DNA from: a virus
Direction: 5' to 3' (one strand)
Length of the DNA stretch: 27,240 bases
Virus record (IMG/VR): IMGVR_UViG_3300020162_002139
Coordinates: 1 to 27,240 of that record
A model generated the notes under the pieces. It was not told the origin of the DNA. It worked only from the letters and a program-made list of their open reading frames with translations, and did not search any database. A program made the translations under genes and the position numbers. Of the stretch, positions 5,011 to 18,116 are shown piece after piece. Within the stretch, counting starts at the first letter, position 1; each line of letters begins with the position of its first letter.

Positions 5011-5181
5011 TTATTTAGTTTTGGGCTCAGATTCAATTGCTGAAAGGATTAATGCAACAATCGCCACAAAGAAGTAGCAAATGCCATCAAAGAAGTGCTT
5101 GTTCATGATTGAGGTAATGCTCACATAGTACATGACAAGAGCAATACAGATAAGTGCGATAACTTTTAGTGTGATATTCAT
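5011..5181 (-). CDS. Small two-helix membrane protein (56 aa)
   Basis: Start placed at MNITLKVIALICIALVMYYV (ATG 5179-5181). Two hydrophobic segments are visible, about residues 4-20 and 32-48 (YFFVAIVALILSAIES), joined by a short polar loop with KHF, and the C-terminus is charged. This should be an inner-membrane hairpin. Small membrane proteins in early phage operons include superinfection-exclusion proteins and holins, but nothing here decides between them. It is the first gene after the structured noncoding segment. The ATG lies between two copies of TAGTGTGATA (5168-5177 and 5181-5190 on the plus strand), so the start region is duplicated sequence. Confidence 0.6.
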   Translation of the reverse strand: MNITLKVIALICIALVMYYVSITSIMNKHFFDGICYFFVAIVALILSAIESEPKTK

Positions 5182-5508
5182 AGTGTGATAGTGGGTGATG
5201 GCATGGACTCGAACCACATGTATGCCTTTACATTGCCATCACGATATACTTTCCGTATCACCCATATGTCCATACCTTGCGGATTCCTACATATGGCGAT
5301 TTGATACGGGCATCTATCTGCATCGGTATGTCGATGCTCCGATAGTGTTATGTCAAGGAACGATGCATCTGCAATGGGATAACGTCTCCGCTATCTAAGG
5401 ATGTCCGTAGACATCTGCATTGGGACTCAGATACAAGAATCAGAACGATTTTGTAGGTGATATGGGTAATGCTCCCATACTAAGGTCAACTTGACTCACC
5501 TTGGGTAA
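5182..5508 (-). ncRNA. Structured noncoding segment, possible novel RNA
   Basis: These 327 nt between two leftward genes carry no credible ORF but many stable inverted repeats. (a) 5253-5309: an 8-bp stem CCGTATCA/TGATACGG enclosing an 8-bp stem CCATATGT/ACATATGG, with a GCAA loop on the minus strand. (b) 5320-5337: 6-bp stem GCATCG/CGATGC. (c) 5341-5395: GATAG/CTATC with inner GTTAT/ATAAC. (d) 5400-5415: GATGTC/GACATC, with a UACG loop on the minus strand. (e) 5455-5501: AGGTGA/TCACCT enclosing TATGGG/CCCATA and a GTCAACTTGAC palindrome, a three-way-junction layout. (f) 5192-5241: tRNA-like fold. Sense is taken as minus because both flanking genes and the T-arm read that way. It could be one RNA or a row of decayed tRNAs. 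Confidence 0.5.
5192..5241 (-). other. Compact tRNA-like fold with encoded CCA
   Basis: Read on the minus strand: TGATGGC, a stem ATGTA/TACAT with loop AAGGCA, a T-arm-like GTGG-TTCGAGT-CCAT, GCCATCA, then C-CCA. The 7-bp acceptor-like stem is perfect and extends to 9 bp. The T-loop TTCGAGT is canonical. There is no D-arm, and the single middle hairpin has a 6-nt loop with no usable anticodon, so it cannot be an ordinary tRNA. An alternative 71-nt fold using GGGTGAT/ATCACCC leaves two unpaired bases next to the T-stem. It may be a decayed tRNA or a tRNA mimic. Confidence 0.4.
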
Positions 5509-6010: not shown

Positions 6011-6042
6011 CAAACCTACAACCGATTGGTATTTCGTGTCAA
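6011..6042 (-). promoter_or_regulatory. Leftward early promoter
   Basis: On the minus strand, TTGA (6042-6039) is followed after 20 nt by TAGGTTTG (6018-6011), an exact TAnnTTTG box. It lies about 40 nt upstream of the 153-aa gene and should drive the leftward early array. The -33 box is imperfect. Confidence 0.55.
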
Positions 6043-6175
6043 GCGTTTTTTGTCGTTTCTTTGTGAATGGATGGTTTGGCTTTGTGAATGAACGTTTTTT
6101 CTTTTTTCTGTGACAATCAGATGACATTTCCTCGTGTGCGTGTGCGTGATTCCTTATATCGGGAAAGAATAAATA

Positions 6176-6296
6176 GTTGTTGTAACAAATGTTGTTGAAA
6201 CGATTGTTGTTGTAACAAATGCGAAATTGGGATGGGTTGATGAGAGATAAAAAAATTCGACAGATGATGTGTGAACAAAAGTTGTTGGAACGAATG
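6176..6296. repeat. 15-bp iteron-like repeats
   Basis: Three head-to-tail copies start at 6176, 6191 and 6206: GTTGTTGTAACAAAT, GTTGTTGAAACGATT, GTTGTTGTAACAAAT. A fourth, GTTGTTGGAACGAAT, starts at 6281, exactly 75 nt (five repeat lengths) after the third. Each copy is partly palindromic (TTGTT-n-AACAA). This is what iterons or operators of a dimeric binding protein look like. Confidence 0.65.
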
Positions 6297-6346
6297 TGGG
6301 ATGTCTTACAGATAGAAGTTGCACAGCCTTGGCGATTTCTTTCTTT

Positions 6347-6422: not shown

Positions 6423-6496
6423 ATTTCTATTTGTATTTTAATTTGGTTCGAGTCAAGCCATCGTAACTAATTAATTGTCAGCAAGTTATGGAAACA

Positions 6497-7394: not shown

Positions 7395-7426
7395 GACCCA
7401 ATTCGTTGACACCAACAAAATGGTTG

Positions 7427-7499
7427 TAGTCAGTACAGGACTCGAACCTGTATATCCAACATTTGCCGTGTTGGGCGTTCCATTTCCGCCACCTGACTA
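7427..7499 (-). tRNA. tRNA-Cys-like gene (anticodon GCA)
   Basis: A 73-nt cloverleaf on the minus strand: acceptor TAGTCAG/CTGACTA (7 bp), D-arm GGCG/CGCC with GG in the loop, anticodon stem CAACA/TGTTG with loop CGGCAAA, T-arm ACAGG-TTCGAGT-CCTGT. The anticodon GCA (7464-7466) reads Cys codons UGC/UGU. Bacterial tRNA-Cys usually has loop CUGCAAA; here the universally conserved U33 is G. No CCA is encoded directly at the acceptor end (CAACCA follows). It lies downstream of the terminator of the recombination operon, so its expression needs read-through or its own promoter. It may be functional or decaying. Confidence 0.65.
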
Positions 7500-7503
7500 T
7501 TTG

Positions 7504-7543
7504 AAAAAGCCCCACGAGCAGATCTTACGGTATGCAGGTGGGG
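7504..7543 (-). terminator. Rho-independent terminator after the GroES-like gene
   Basis: On the minus strand, CCCCAC (7543-7538) pairs with GTGGGG (7515-7510) across a 22-nt loop, followed by C and T5 (7508-7504). It lies 9 nt past the GroES-like stop codon. On the plus strand the same hairpin is followed by a T-rich stretch, so it may also stop transcription of the 6915 gene. Confidence 0.55.
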
Positions 7544-7551
7544 ACATTTTA

Positions 7552-14089: not shown

Positions 14090-15022
14090 ATGTCAGAAGA
14101 TTTTTTGAAAGATATTGCGGCTGAGCTGAATGCTCAGGTGGCAAAACCTGCTGAAGCACCTGCGGAAATCGCAACAGAGGTAGCTCCAGAACCAGCACCC
14201 GAACCTGCTCCAGAACCTGCTCCCGAACCTGCTCCGCAGCCGGTTGTAGATCCTGCTCCAGTAGTAGTAGAAAAAGAGTGGTGGGAAAAAGATAGCGAGA
14301 CAGTCGCTGATAACAAACCTCAAGTTGAGGAAAAACCTGTTATCGATATGGATGATGATTTGAAACTGATTCTTGAGTACAAGAAGAGTGGAAAAACATT
14401 AGCTGATTTTGTGAAAGAGTATCAAGTAGAAGATGTAAATACTTGGGATGATGCTAAACTAGTTAAACAAGGCTTGAAAGAATTTATGAATCTTTCAGAA
14501 GAAGAACTAGAGCAGGCAACCTACGAGTATGAAAGTGCTTCTATTATCCAAAAGAAACAATGGGCTGAAACATTTAAGCAGCGCTTTGCGGAAAAGAATG
14601 AGAATAAGCTGAAACAGTTGACTTCTTCTAATCAACAGAGTGCCGAAATGCAGAAAGCTATTGCTGATAAATACAATGCTGATTTGGATCAATATGGCAG
14701 AAGTATTGCAAACAAAGAAGTTTATGGTCTTAAAGTTACAGACGAAATGTCTTCAGAACTTAAAAGATACATTAACGAAGAGTTTTCATTACAAAAACCT
14801 GACGGTTCATTTGACATTGAGAAGGTGTATTCCATTGCTCTATGGATGAAATATGGAAAAGACTTAGTAAAAGCTAACGTGACGAAAGCACGCAACGAAG
14901 GTAAAGAACAGGTTATTCGTGAAGTGAGTAACCCTAGTAAGAACATGACTGCTGGTGGACGTTCTGTTGGTTCTGGACTTGAGGCCGCACAAGAGGCTTT
15001 TAATACCTTGTTCCCAGGTTAA
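14090..15022 (+). CDS. Putative scaffold / head-assembly protein (310 aa)
   Basis: An acidic, low-complexity N-terminus contains tandem Pro-Glu-Pro-Ala units (about residues 33-50), coded by 12-bp near-identical repeats (14186-14237). It is followed by a charged helical region rich in Glu, Lys and Gln (EELEQATYEYESASIIQKKQ; ENKLKQLTSS) and a C-terminal ending in GRSVGSGLEAAQEAFNTLF. This composition and its place between portal and major capsid genes are typical of scaffolding proteins, which guide capsid assembly and leave. No protease gene is visible nearby. The PEPA stretch may vary in length between relatives because of the DNA repeats. Confidence 0.6.
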   Translation: MSEDFLKDIAAELNAQVAKPAEAPAEIATEVAPEPAPEPAPEPAPEPAPQPVVDPAPVVVEKEWWEKDSETVADNKPQVEEKPVIDMDDDLKLILEYKKSGKTLADFVKEYQVEDVNTWDDAKLVKQGLKEFMNLSEEELEQATYEYESASIIQKKQWAETFKQRFAEKNENKLKQLTSSNQQSAEMQKAIADKYNADLDQYGRSIANKEVYGLKVTDEMSSELKRYINEEFSLQKPDGSFDIEKVYSIALWMKYGKDLVKANVTKARNEGKEQVIREVSNPSKNMTAGGRSVGSGLEAAQEAFNTLFPG

Positions 15023-15051
15023 TGGGAAAAACCAAAAACAAAAAATAAAAA

Positions 15052-16386
15052 ATGGCAACTATTTCAAATCTTCCTTTGAGTCAATCTCTTTTGCTTAAAG
15101 GACTTTCATTGCCCAACAAAATGGCAATGGTTTATAGTCAAGATTATGGCTATAACGTTTTGACTCAGCTTACCTCTAAATTGGGCAGCTCTATTTCTAC
15201 TCCTCAGGCGAAAGTAGAAGTTAGCTCATTGGGTAACTTGGGTGTGTTCTCTAAAGTAACTACCGCTATCAATACCTCTACTGGTGTTGTAGGTGTTAAC
15301 GATGCGAGCAAATTCCGTGTAGGTGATATCGTAGCTGATGCTAACATGATCCAAGGTTTGGTAACTGATGTTAACTACAGCAACAGCACCATCACTTTGG
15401 TTCCTCACAGTGTTGCTGCTTTCACTAGCGCTCACTTTGCAGTAGGACACAACGCTAAGCGTTTCTTCGATGCTTCTCCTAACCGTTCTTCTTTCGGTAA
15501 GAGCACTTTGAATTACACTCCTAACACTGATTTCGCTTTGACCGCTGTAACTCGTGAGAGTTCACACCAGTCTCGTAGAGATCGTACCTCTTCTTTCGTG
15601 AAGTGGAATGGTGATTTCTGGTGGAGATCTTATGATGATCTTACTTTGAAAGCCTTCGCTAAGCAGTTGGAGTACAAGTATGCTTTCTCTGAGCGTAGCA
15701 TCAAGCAAGGTCCTTACGGTGAGTACTACACTACCGGTGGTTTGCGTTGGTCAATCATCAACAATGGTGGTACCTACTTGCCTTTGACTTCTGAGTTGAC
15801 TCAAGTTGTGTTCAACGATTTCTTGGAGCAAATGGTTCGTGTTTCTGCTGAAGGCGGACGCAAATTGGTTGCTTTGATGGGTAGCGCTGCTATGGCTCGC
15901 TTGCAAACTATCTTGGGTGACTACATTAAGTACGCTGGTACTGCAAACACCTTCGGTGGTGCTTCTGTAACTGGTTTGAACGTAATGAAGTACGCTTACG
16001 CTGGTTTGGAAATCGAGTTTGTACGTTGGTCTTTGTTGGATGACGAGATGTTCCGTAGCGAATTGTCTACCATCAACGGTAAGCCAAAGATGTCAAGCAG
16101 CATCTATTTCTTGGATATGACTTCTGTTCCTGCTGCTGACGGTTCTGGAACCTTGTCTGCATTGCAGAAGTATCACTTCAATAGTGACGAGTTGATCGCC
16201 AACTACGTTCCTGGTATGATCGGTTTGGAAAATAGCGATCCTTCAACTGTAAAAGCTACTATCGCTGGAAGCACTGTTGCTTCTTTGGGTACTAGTGATG
16301 TTGACGGTGTAGATTTCCATATCTTGTCTGACTGTGGTTTGTATTGCATTGCTGACCGTATGGGTCTGATCGAATTCGCATTCTAA
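15052..16386 (+). CDS. Major capsid protein (444 aa)
   Basis: It lies directly after the scaffold-like gene and is preceded by a very A-rich leader, a strong translation start in Bacteroidota. Codon use is notably uniform (GGT, GCT, TTG, CGT, AAC), as expected for a highly expressed protein. The sequence has an N-terminal arm, an early beta-rich domain (about 60-130: VGDIVADANMIQGLVTDVNY), a basic loop (SSHQSRRDRTSSFVKWNGDF) and a long alpha/beta core, consistent with an HK97-fold capsid protein of about 48 kDa. Unlike most of the window it contains no strong copy of the dispersed CTCAGA motif. The family is assigned by position, size and codon bias. Confidence 0.7.
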   Translation: MATISNLPLSQSLLLKGLSLPNKMAMVYSQDYGYNVLTQLTSKLGSSISTPQAKVEVSSLGNLGVFSKVTTAINTSTGVVGVNDASKFRVGDIVADANMIQGLVTDVNYSNSTITLVPHSVAAFTSAHFAVGHNAKRFFDASPNRSSFGKSTLNYTPNTDFALTAVTRESSHQSRRDRTSSFVKWNGDFWWRSYDDLTLKAFAKQLEYKYAFSERSIKQGPYGEYYTTGGLRWSIINNGGTYLPLTSELTQVVFNDFLEQMVRVSAEGGRKLVALMGSAAMARLQTILGDYIKYAGTANTFGGASVTGLNVMKYAYAGLEIEFVRWSLLDDEMFRSELSTINGKPKMSSSIYFLDMTSVPAADGSGTLSALQKYHFNSDELIANYVPGMIGLENSDPSTVKATIAGSTVASLGTSDVDGVDFHILSDCGLYCIADRMGLIEFAF

Positions 16387-16400
16387 TTTAAAAGACGAAA

Positions 16401-17183
16401 ATGAAAAATTATATTGTACAATCTGGCGCAACCTTGACCGGTGCTATGGCTGATGGTGTGTTGAGCATCGCTGGTACTTACGGATCTCCTGTAAAATTGT
16501 TGTGGAGCAACATTAAAAAGGCTGAATACGTAGCTTATAGTGCTGGTACTGCTCAGGTTTCAACTGTTACCATCTCTGGTACTTTGACTCCTGGTAACAT
16601 TGTTTCTTTGCAGATCTCTCAAGATTTGTCTAAAGCGGCTAACAGTGTAGGTCCTCGTGAAAAAGTTGCAATCATCACTCACGTGATTAACGCTGCTGAT
16701 ACTGTTACTACTATTGCTGCTTCTATCGTAGCTCAAGTTAACAATCAGCCTTTGGAAATCGTTGCTACTAACTCTTCTGGAGTTGTAACTTTGACTGCCA
16801 CTTTACCTTACGCTATCTTCAGCGTAGCCGAAGTTAAGGATGATGGAGCAAACTCTGCTTTGGCTACTGGAACTGCTGGTGTTAAGCCAACTGGTTTCAC
16901 TGGTGCCGAGTTAGTTGCTTTGGAAATTCCTGGTGCTGCTGCAAGTTCTAACTATGCTATCTTCAAGTTTATCTACGCTACTCCTAAGGTAGACGATAAA
17001 ATTGTTGCTGAGCATACTGAAGTTTTCAACTTGTATGTAGAGTCTTCAGTTTCTGTAACTGATTTGAGTAACACTTTGAAGTGTTTGGATATTGCTGATC
17101 TTTCTACCAGCAATACTTACACTGATGCGGCTTTGAACGCTGTGTTGGCTCAGATTCGTGAGTACTTGGCAAAGTTGTCTTAA
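16401..17183 (+). CDS. Putative head decoration or structural protein (260 aa)
   Basis: The protein is beta-rich and Ala/Thr/Val/Ser-rich (AQVSTVTISGTLTPGNIVSL; VNNQPLEIVATNSSGVVTLT), begins MKNYIVQSGATLTGAMADGV, and has no cysteine-rich or catalytic motif. It follows the major capsid gene by 14 nt, shares its strong codon bias, and is closed by a terminator, so the two form a highly expressed pair. An accessory capsid (cement or fibre base) protein is most likely; a tail-tube-like protein is the alternative. Confidence 0.5.
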   Translation: MKNYIVQSGATLTGAMADGVLSIAGTYGSPVKLLWSNIKKAEYVAYSAGTAQVSTVTISGTLTPGNIVSLQISQDLSKAANSVGPREKVAIITHVINAADTVTTIAASIVAQVNNQPLEIVATNSSGVVTLTATLPYAIFSVAEVKDDGANSALATGTAGVKPTGFTGAELVALEIPGAAASSNYAIFKFIYATPKVDDKIVAEHTEVFNLYVESSVSVTDLSNTLKCLDIADLSTSNTYTDAALNAVLAQIREYLAKLS

Positions 17184-17200
17184 TCGATCACTTTAAAATT

Positions 17201-17229
17201 AGAGGGGGATTTATTCTCCCTCTTTTTTT
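17201..17229 (+). terminator. Terminator after the capsid genes
   Basis: Stem AGAGGG (17201-17206) with CCCTCT (17218-17223) and an 11-nt loop, followed by a T-run to 17229. The end of the T-run doubles as the -33 box TTTG of the next promoter. Confidence 0.8.
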
Positions 17230-17258
17230 GCTTTTAATTGTAAAATAATTTATATTTG
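17227..17258 (+). promoter_or_regulatory. Promoter fused to the terminator
   Basis: TTTG (17227-17230), 20-nt spacer, TATATTTG (17251-17258), a perfect match. The ATG at 17268 follows after 9 nt. Confidence 0.65.
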
Positions 17259-17267
17259 TAAATACTT

Positions 17268-18116
17268 ATGCGCATCCAAGCTTATTTAGTTCCTCTGAGA
17301 ACCCGTGGTAATGTTACCATCGTTGGTTCTTATCGAGATCGGGCCACTGATAAAGAAGTTTTTCTTTTGGCCTCAGGTAAAAAAGTAGTGTCATCTTTGA
17401 GTGAAGGAGATAGAGTTTATCAGCATACTTTTGAGGAAGGTATGTCTATTCCTTTCAGCTTTGATGAATCTAATTTCCAAGAAAAAGCAGTAGTTGATTT
17501 TTGGAAAAATCATCCATTGGTAGTTACAGATGGGTATAACAACCCAAATTTGATCACCGAGCAATTTAAATTTGAAGTAAAGGCTGAGAAAGTCCGTGTT
17601 GAATATGATGAGTTGTTGGCTCGTTTGCAGTGTGTATCACAAGTGTCTGCCATGACATTCCAGGAGCAGATTAACTTGACTTTTGCATTGGGCTCAGATC
17701 CTCGCAATATGGACCAGAAGGAAATCTATCTTCACCTTATTGGTTTGACATTGAACGGTATGGCAATCGCTAAGAAAAAGTTTGTTGCTAGCTACTTGTC
17801 AGTTAGAGCTAACGAGCGTATTGCAACTGTATACGCAAACAAGGCGATTTCTTACGGTGTTGTAAGTAAGGAGGGTTCTGTTTACAAGATTGCAGGACGT
17901 AACGCAGGTACAACTATTGACGCTGTGGTCGCATTAATTCTGAGCGATACAGAACTGTTTGAGAATTACATCAAACCAGAAGTAGATAAGCACGATGAAA
18001 ATCAATTGCTTAAGTATTCTGTAGACGATACTATTGATCTTCCAGAAGAAATTAAAAATCTTATTCCTGCTAGTGGTGTGGCAGCTAAGAAAAAAGTAAC
18101 CAAGGCTTCCGAGTAA
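17268..18116 (+). CDS. Virion-module protein of unknown role (282 aa)
   Basis: The N-terminus MRIQAYLVPLRTRGNVTIVG is followed by a beta-rich region (residues 1-110), then a helical middle (QKEIYLHLIGLTLNGMAIAK) and a lysine-rich end (PASGVAAKKKVTKASE). It forms a unit of one gene between two terminators with its own promoter, so its amount is set independently of its neighbours. Position between capsid and connector genes suggests a structural or assembly protein. I do not recognise the family. Confidence 0.5.
   Translation: MRIQAYLVPLRTRGNVTIVGSYRDRATDKEVFLLASGKKVVSSLSEGDRVYQHTFEEGMSIPFSFDESNFQEKAVVDFWKNHPLVVTDGYNNPNLITEQFKFEVKAEKVRVEYDELLARLQCVSQVSAMTFQEQINLTFALGSDPRNMDQKEIYLHLIGLTLNGMAIAKKKFVASYLSVRANERIATVYANKAISYGVVSKEGSVYKIAGRNAGTTIDAVVALILSDTELFENYIKPEVDKHDENQLLKYSVDDTIDLPEEIKNLIPASGVAAKKKVTKASE

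Follow-up and report, generated by a model that had tools for sequence, protein, structure and literature searches.

Among the known systems closest to the RNA described here are the boxA of rRNA operons, the lambda nut sites and the HK022 put RNA, with which it shares a host-type boxA, a position near the start of an early operon and a structured RNA. It differs from these systems in being far larger and in having a tRNA-like end; no boxB–N pair has been shown for it, and antitermination is inferred. The tRNA-like domain of tmRNA (RF00023) likewise keeps an acceptor and T-arm in the absence of an anticodon arm, whereas the phage RNA has no tag reading frame, long connecting helix or CCA and holds both acceptor strands together at its 3′ end. 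Long non-coding RNAs with a tRNA-like domain on the 3′ side are also represented by mascRNA and menRNA (3′ ends of MALAT1 and NEAT1), and the MALAT1 domain is cut by tRNA-processing enzymes; those RNAs are animal and keep an anticodon-like arm, whereas cutting of the phage RNA has not been shown. Viral tRNA mimicry at an RNA end is familiar from the tRNA-like structures of plant RNA viruses (TYMV and others), which are an RNase P substrate (PMC12710915). TYMV-type structures differ from the phage RNA in their pseudoknot acceptor, CCA end and position at the genome end. GOLLD and ROOL are also a class of structured phage RNA, large and often near tRNA genes, but they are much longer and their covariance models do not match the RNA studied here, and we know of no such tRNA-like domain in either.

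The window analyzed here, a stretch of 27,240 nucleotides, is a 27.2-kb virus record of an uncultured phage that probably infects a Bacteroidota bacterium, the host being inferred. Its portal protein matches phrog_6547 and is about 20% identical to that of the Flavobacterium phages Fpv1/FpV4, a distant relative, and among annotated phages we found no direct DNA relatives and no direct structural-gene relatives. A Bacteroidota-type promoter-like sequence, TTG-N21-TAGGTTTG, can be read upstream of an operon at positions 6011–6042 (minus strand), and the same motif precedes the homologous gene in the related locus L008. Bacteroidota promoters have the consensus TTTG / TAnnTTTG, and the conserved motif at the operon start fits a Bacteroidota host. 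The promoter is followed by the gene for P0001 (5509–5970, minus strand; 153 aa), which matched no known family, by the structured RNA (5192–5508, minus strand) and by a gene for a small putative membrane protein of 56 aa (5011–5181, minus strand) whose ATG lies 24 nt past the T-arm core. The first-pass annotation had argued that co-directional flanking genes imply transcription of the region, and both neighbors do lie on the minus strand, which places the RNA on that strand with its 5′ end near 5508. The best explanation of the arrangement, without transcript data, is an operon that reads leftward from the Bacteroidota-type promoter through P0001 and the RNA into small genes. Upstream of the promoter, positions 6150–6300 hold repeated GTTGTTGTAACAAATG-like strings that also occur in L008 and could be operators, and an isolated T-arm-like string with a poor stem, ATTTGGTTCGAGTCAAGCCA, lies at 6441–6460 (plus strand) in the gap between divergent operons.

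On the minus strand, the RNA forms a series of conserved domains, the last of which is a tRNA top half without an anticodon arm. At its 5′ end is a three-way junction (5455–5501) closed by helix P1 (AGGUGA/UCACCU) and containing the hairpins GUC-AAGUU-GAC and GUAUGGG-AGCAUUA-CCCAUAU, the latter with a conserved loop. A first boxA-like copy, GUUCUGA (5440–5446), is followed by a UACG-loop hairpin, GAUGUC-UACG-GACAUC (5400–5415), which recurs with an altered stem in group A relatives, and by the hairpin GAUAGCG-GAGA-CGUUAUC (5378–5395), replaced in relatives by AAUGUAG-GUGA-CUACAUU. Beyond a second boxA copy, GUUCCUUGA (5353–5361), lie a CUAUC...GAUAG hairpin around GCAUCG/CGAUGC (5314–5345), kept in L048 with an altered stem, and a two-part 8+8 bp hairpin with a GCAA loop, CCGTATCA/TGATACGG and CCATATGT/ACATATGG (5253–5309). 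The latter is an optional module, and the inner part of this GCAA/UCUGA hairpin is absent from L051 and present in the otherwise similar L056. The tRNA-like 3′ domain (5195–5242) consists of a 7-bp acceptor, GUGAUGG/CCAUCAC (5242–5236 with 5201–5195), a D-like hairpin, AUGU-AAAG-GCAU (5233–5222), and a 5-bp T-stem, UGUGG/CCAUG, with the canonical T-loop UUCGAGU (5218–5202), all on the minus strand. Each stem named in the first-pass annotation is thus present, from the 8+8 bp GCAA hairpin and the UACG hairpin to the three-way junction and the T-arm fold; that reading was right about the T-arm and missed the strand, the anticodon-less tRNA top half and the boxA motifs.

Nine related loci keep this architecture (L008/L059, L048, L057, L067, L060, L051, L056, L017 and L032). 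Most were recovered by a scan of viral contigs with the tRNA-like core followed by inspection (L048, L051, L056, L057, L060, L067, L032), and L017 was identified through its boxA and P0001 homolog. L008 is 79% identical over the RNA, and the near-identical L002 contig (99.9%) is uninformative. A search with a single protein from L051 yielded one further fragment only. In every related locus except L032 the RNA lies directly 3′ of the P0001 gene or homolog, and in L032 it lies 5′ of the P0001 homolog. The family is mosaic, L060 combining an L051/L056-type 5′ half with an L057-type 3′ half. Across the 5′ three-way junction, pairing holds in 96.1% of cells, both partners have changed in 11 of the 15 pairs and the covariation score is 0.737; with slid partners, pairing reaches no more than 57%, doubly changed pairs no more than two and the score no more than 0.140. 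Six of seven sequences retain the AGCAUUA loop that lies between the varying stems. The tRNA-like domain shows double changes at four T-stem pairs. All seven members checked form 7/7 acceptor pairs, the T-stem forms 4–5 of 5 pairs in six of them and 3/5 in L017, and in six members no extra base separates acceptor from T-stem, giving the proportions of a real tRNA in varied sequences. In L017 this domain contains a bulge and an insert of greater length, and its D-like hairpin reads AAGU-AAAG-GCUU, a compensatory change. The sequences are few, several are mutually close and alignments A6 and A7 come from hand-trimmed stretches, so we regard the slid controls as the safer comparison. Long-range RNAalifold pairs joining 173–186 with 349–397 were not accepted because they compete with the exact acceptor stem.

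It is this covariation in relatives, and not folding energy, that leads us to judge the RNA beyond chance. Folding of the minus strand gives −99.4 kcal/mol (z −3.56), with none of 100 shuffles as good, and the plus strand is weaker (z −1.65); that value and the opposite orientation of the genes led us to reject a plus-strand RNA. In a scan of the entire window in 327-nt steps on both strands (mean z −0.66, s.d. 1.42), the region scored about −3.1 (30 shuffles), about 12th of 168 segments and within the best tenth. The claim that its stem density is far above that of the flanks is overstated, and energy, not being exceptional within the window, was dropped as the main argument. The segment with the lowest z, 17005–17331, is an ordinary terminator and promoter. 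Against Rfam 15, positions 5182–5508 had no match that reached the gathering score, and those at E ≤ 10 did not rise above chance level. The SpF41 sRNA was rejected (E 0.32, under its cut-off, with a match mostly to the T-arm), as was tmRNA, for which neither ARAGORN nor a covariance model gave a match. GOLLD and ROOL were rejected for want of a match at the gathering score or at E ≤ 10 and for the length of the RNA, only about 320–400 nt, in keeping with the earlier failure to see any likeness to them. An ordinary tRNA (RF00005) was likewise excluded: ARAGORN and Rfam make no call at 5182–5508, and the fold has only acceptor, D-like hairpin and T-arm with no anticodon arm, so the stems are not a row of ordinary tRNAs, one of two outcomes that would have refuted the idea of a new structured RNA. 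The other, an absence of covariation across relatives, did not occur either, and that idea is supported by strong covariation together with the lack of an Rfam match. The RNA is best explained as a phage RNA family that is new and has no entry in Rfam 15; a literature search found no description of either RNA element reported here, an absence that is not proof of novelty.

The sole ARAGORN call in the window is a tRNA-Cys at 7426–7498 (minus strand), a position whose identity shifts among relatives (Thr in L022, L024 and L026, Met in L030, Glu and Met in L006, Gln in L032). Beside it, at 7503–7548 (minus strand), is a 46-nt hairpin, CCCCAC...GUGGGG, with a U-run, whose identity across many relatives is 91–98% against just 65–85% for their coding DNA, a conservation that exceeds the need of a plain terminator.

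In relatives of the RNA, one or two copies of the 9-mer GUUCUUUGA occupy conserved positions; the window has GUUCCUUGA and a weaker first copy, at whose place L051 and L056 have the exact motif. The same 9-mer occurs in 11 of 18 distinct Bacteroidota rRNA leaders, 82–217 nt upstream of the 16S gene, in 16 of 18 when near forms are included, and in none of the 18 on the reverse strand. The second boxA of the window has one change, which is shared by the rRNA leader L216, where GTTCCTTGAC and the window's GTTCCTTGA are present. Judged by relatives and leaders, and with Bacteroidota as the inferred host, the boxA is of the host-rRNA-leader type. A longer string, CATCGTTCTTTGACATATTGG, precedes the tRNA in phages L231, L238 and L241, and a 17-mer boxA scan returned unrelated matches in addition to the RNA family and tRNA leaders; phages seem to use rRNA-type boxA ahead of tRNA arrays. 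In these three phages and in L234 and L243, the boxA [AC]ATCGTTCTTTGACATA stands immediately before a tRNA or just past a promoter-like sequence. Separately, two relatives carry a boxA-like AACGTTCTTTGAAT directly 3′ of the portal gene (L027:5027, L028:6805). The predicted mean unpaired probability of the second boxA is 0.30–0.67, not clearly above the RNA average of about 0.41. We call the motif boxA because of its place in rRNA leaders and the E. coli literature, in which boxA suffices for the rRNA antitermination complex (PMC10250234). Recruitment of NusB–S10 is inferred on these same two grounds, with no binding data.

Our leading reading, held tentatively and short of conviction, is that this early-operon non-coding RNA combines boxA for Rho-resistant elongation with a tRNA-like end handled by host tRNA-processing enzymes. 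One or two host-rRNA-type boxA copies, a motif that is present and whose action is inferred, would recruit NusB–S10, and polymerase would cross the untranslated 300 nt and the later genes without Rho-dependent termination, by analogy with rRNA operons and lambda nut sites. RNase P and/or RNase Z may then recognize the 12-bp acceptor/T stack and elbow and cut there, which would free a separate RNA and give the following mRNA a short leader, about 15–25 nt long. The reading is supported by the conserved structure, by boxA in relatives, rRNA leaders and phage tRNA leaders, and by the exact 7+5 bp geometry. The processing step gains support from a start codon that stays 17–29 nt past the same T-arm point in seven members, even though the gene that follows is not the same in all of them (L056 versus the others). 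Counted against it are the lack of transcript or cleavage data, the absence of an encoded CCA, boxA accessibility that is not clearly raised and the one change in the second boxA.

The same locus could instead be a pure cis antitermination element of nut, put or EAR type, in which boxA and the RNA domains bind Nus factors, perhaps with P0001 as an N-like partner, and the tRNA-like end is structural and uncut. P0001 is a constant neighbor on either side of the RNA, and the order of promoter, small protein, boxA RNA and early genes is one that we take to resemble lambda pR-cro-nutR. However, lambda nut sites are far smaller, P0001 has no match to a known family, and the last domain has exact tRNA geometry, which to our knowledge nothing in antitermination requires; we consider this explanation unlikely, if still worth serious attention.

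A second, widespread tRNA-like form bears on the processing step. The first search with the core also returned L041, L052 and L062, which have GGCAUACA and a T-arm in common and a shorter first stem. The pattern GGCATACA-N4,5-GTTCGARTC found 108 stretches in viral contigs and 134 sites over all loci collected at that point; a slightly relaxed version found 129 distinct sites among the collected loci, and in 120 of these both stems can form, although pairing is no part of the pattern. In a non-redundant set (n = 76), pairing holds in 99.3% of cells, both partners have changed in 10 of the 11 pairs and covariation is 0.944 versus at most 0.192 when slid; the set was pre-filtered for pairing (120/129 kept), which slightly inflates the percentage, and the invariance of the octamer is partly caused by the search. 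The linker AAY-GG-CAKACA resembles the D-loop of tRNA-Leu. The first stem begins 6–11 nt past the stop codon of the preceding same-strand ORF in about half of the 108 stretches (mode 7), with no such peak in an antisense control, and the next start is mostly within about 10–45 nt.

A Blast search with one consensus copy matched records of Streptomyces, Microbacterium and Mycobacterium phages, as a rule more than once per record, and nearly all listed places have no annotated feature beneath them. Seven copies apiece lie in Streptomyces phage Lannister and Mycobacterium phage Damien, all in early-region intergenic gaps, and the count in other phage records ranges from one to ten. Sites are also present in genome contigs, among them those of Tenacibaculum, Flavobacterium, Hymenobacter, Jiangella, Amycolatopsis and Microbacterium, and the form also occurs in (pro)phages of Bacteroidota; a scan of 395 Bacteroidota genomes gave just one match, already known, so the second form is not a common host feature. 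It is unknown to Rfam. In many gaps of L183 and L184, a second hairpin follows the tRNA-like element by about 10 nt. L184 (phage Damien) also holds variants at 15009–15101, 16280–16416 and 17542–17670 with the linker AUGGUCGAA or little beyond GG; model R1, built from the second form with the window left out, scores these low or misses them, and the class is therefore broader than the search core.

Applied to the window, R1 ranks the tRNA-like domain first (21.2 bits, E 4e-4), but the T-arm of the ordinary tRNA-Cys scores 20.3 bits; it gives 27–29 bits in the relatives L060, L057 and L067. Both forms have GGCAUACA and a T-loop beside a coaxial acceptor-like stem; stem lengths differ, the window form having 7+5 bp with a D-like hairpin and the second form 5+6 bp without one. 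That the two forms share an ancestor is suggested and not proven, and convergence on the tRNA elbow is not excluded.

The stems of the second form are followed by A in 78% of sites and then by C in 93%. The N73–C74 position takes part in the RCCA–RPR interaction, pairing with RNase P RNA, and RNase P depends on R73-C74-C75 contacts (PMC12710915). Its non-tRNA substrates include phage M3 RNA, phage C4 antisense RNA and mRNAs (PMC11143913). The place of the second form at gene junctions, followed by a conserved A-C at the N73–C74 place, is counted in favor of the proposed RNase P step; of R73-C74-C75 only R-C is present, in the second form alone, and the window form has no constant R-C.

These placements also weigh on a trans-acting small RNA or RNP with P0001 as its binding protein, for example a host regulator or a tRNA decoy against host tRNA-cutting defenses. 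The RNA always adjoins P0001 and a tRNA top half is plausible as a decoy, but the anticodon loop, the usual target of tRNA-cutting defense nucleases, is missing and the fixed stop-to-start position favors a cis role, so that we find this possibility distinctly improbable. Poorer still, if only slightly, is the idea of an uncut translation or mRNA-end element, in which the tRNA-like fold protects the end of the mRNA or influences ribosomes where two genes meet: the distances of the second form from the preceding stop and the next start would suit it, yet no ribosome-binding feature has been shown, and the window form, at its constant distance from the start codon, is far from the preceding stop. 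A decayed tRNA gene surrounded by chance hairpins is barely conceivable, since the tRNA-like T-arm sequence has to be set against several helices with compensatory changes, the absence of a tRNA call and covariation that already contradicts it.

The RNA family of the window brings together, within a single phage RNA, two known signals: boxA of the host type and the top half of a tRNA. It is possible, though we would lean against asserting it, that phages of at least two phyla punctuate early polycistronic transcripts with anticodon-less tRNA mimics cut or capped by the host tRNA-processing machinery, the window RNA being an elaborate version combined with a boxA signal for antitermination. In cultured phages of Streptomyces and Mycobacterium, the second form recurs without annotation between early genes, and because these phages grow in laboratory strains, whether phages borrow host tRNA processing to cut their messages is directly testable.
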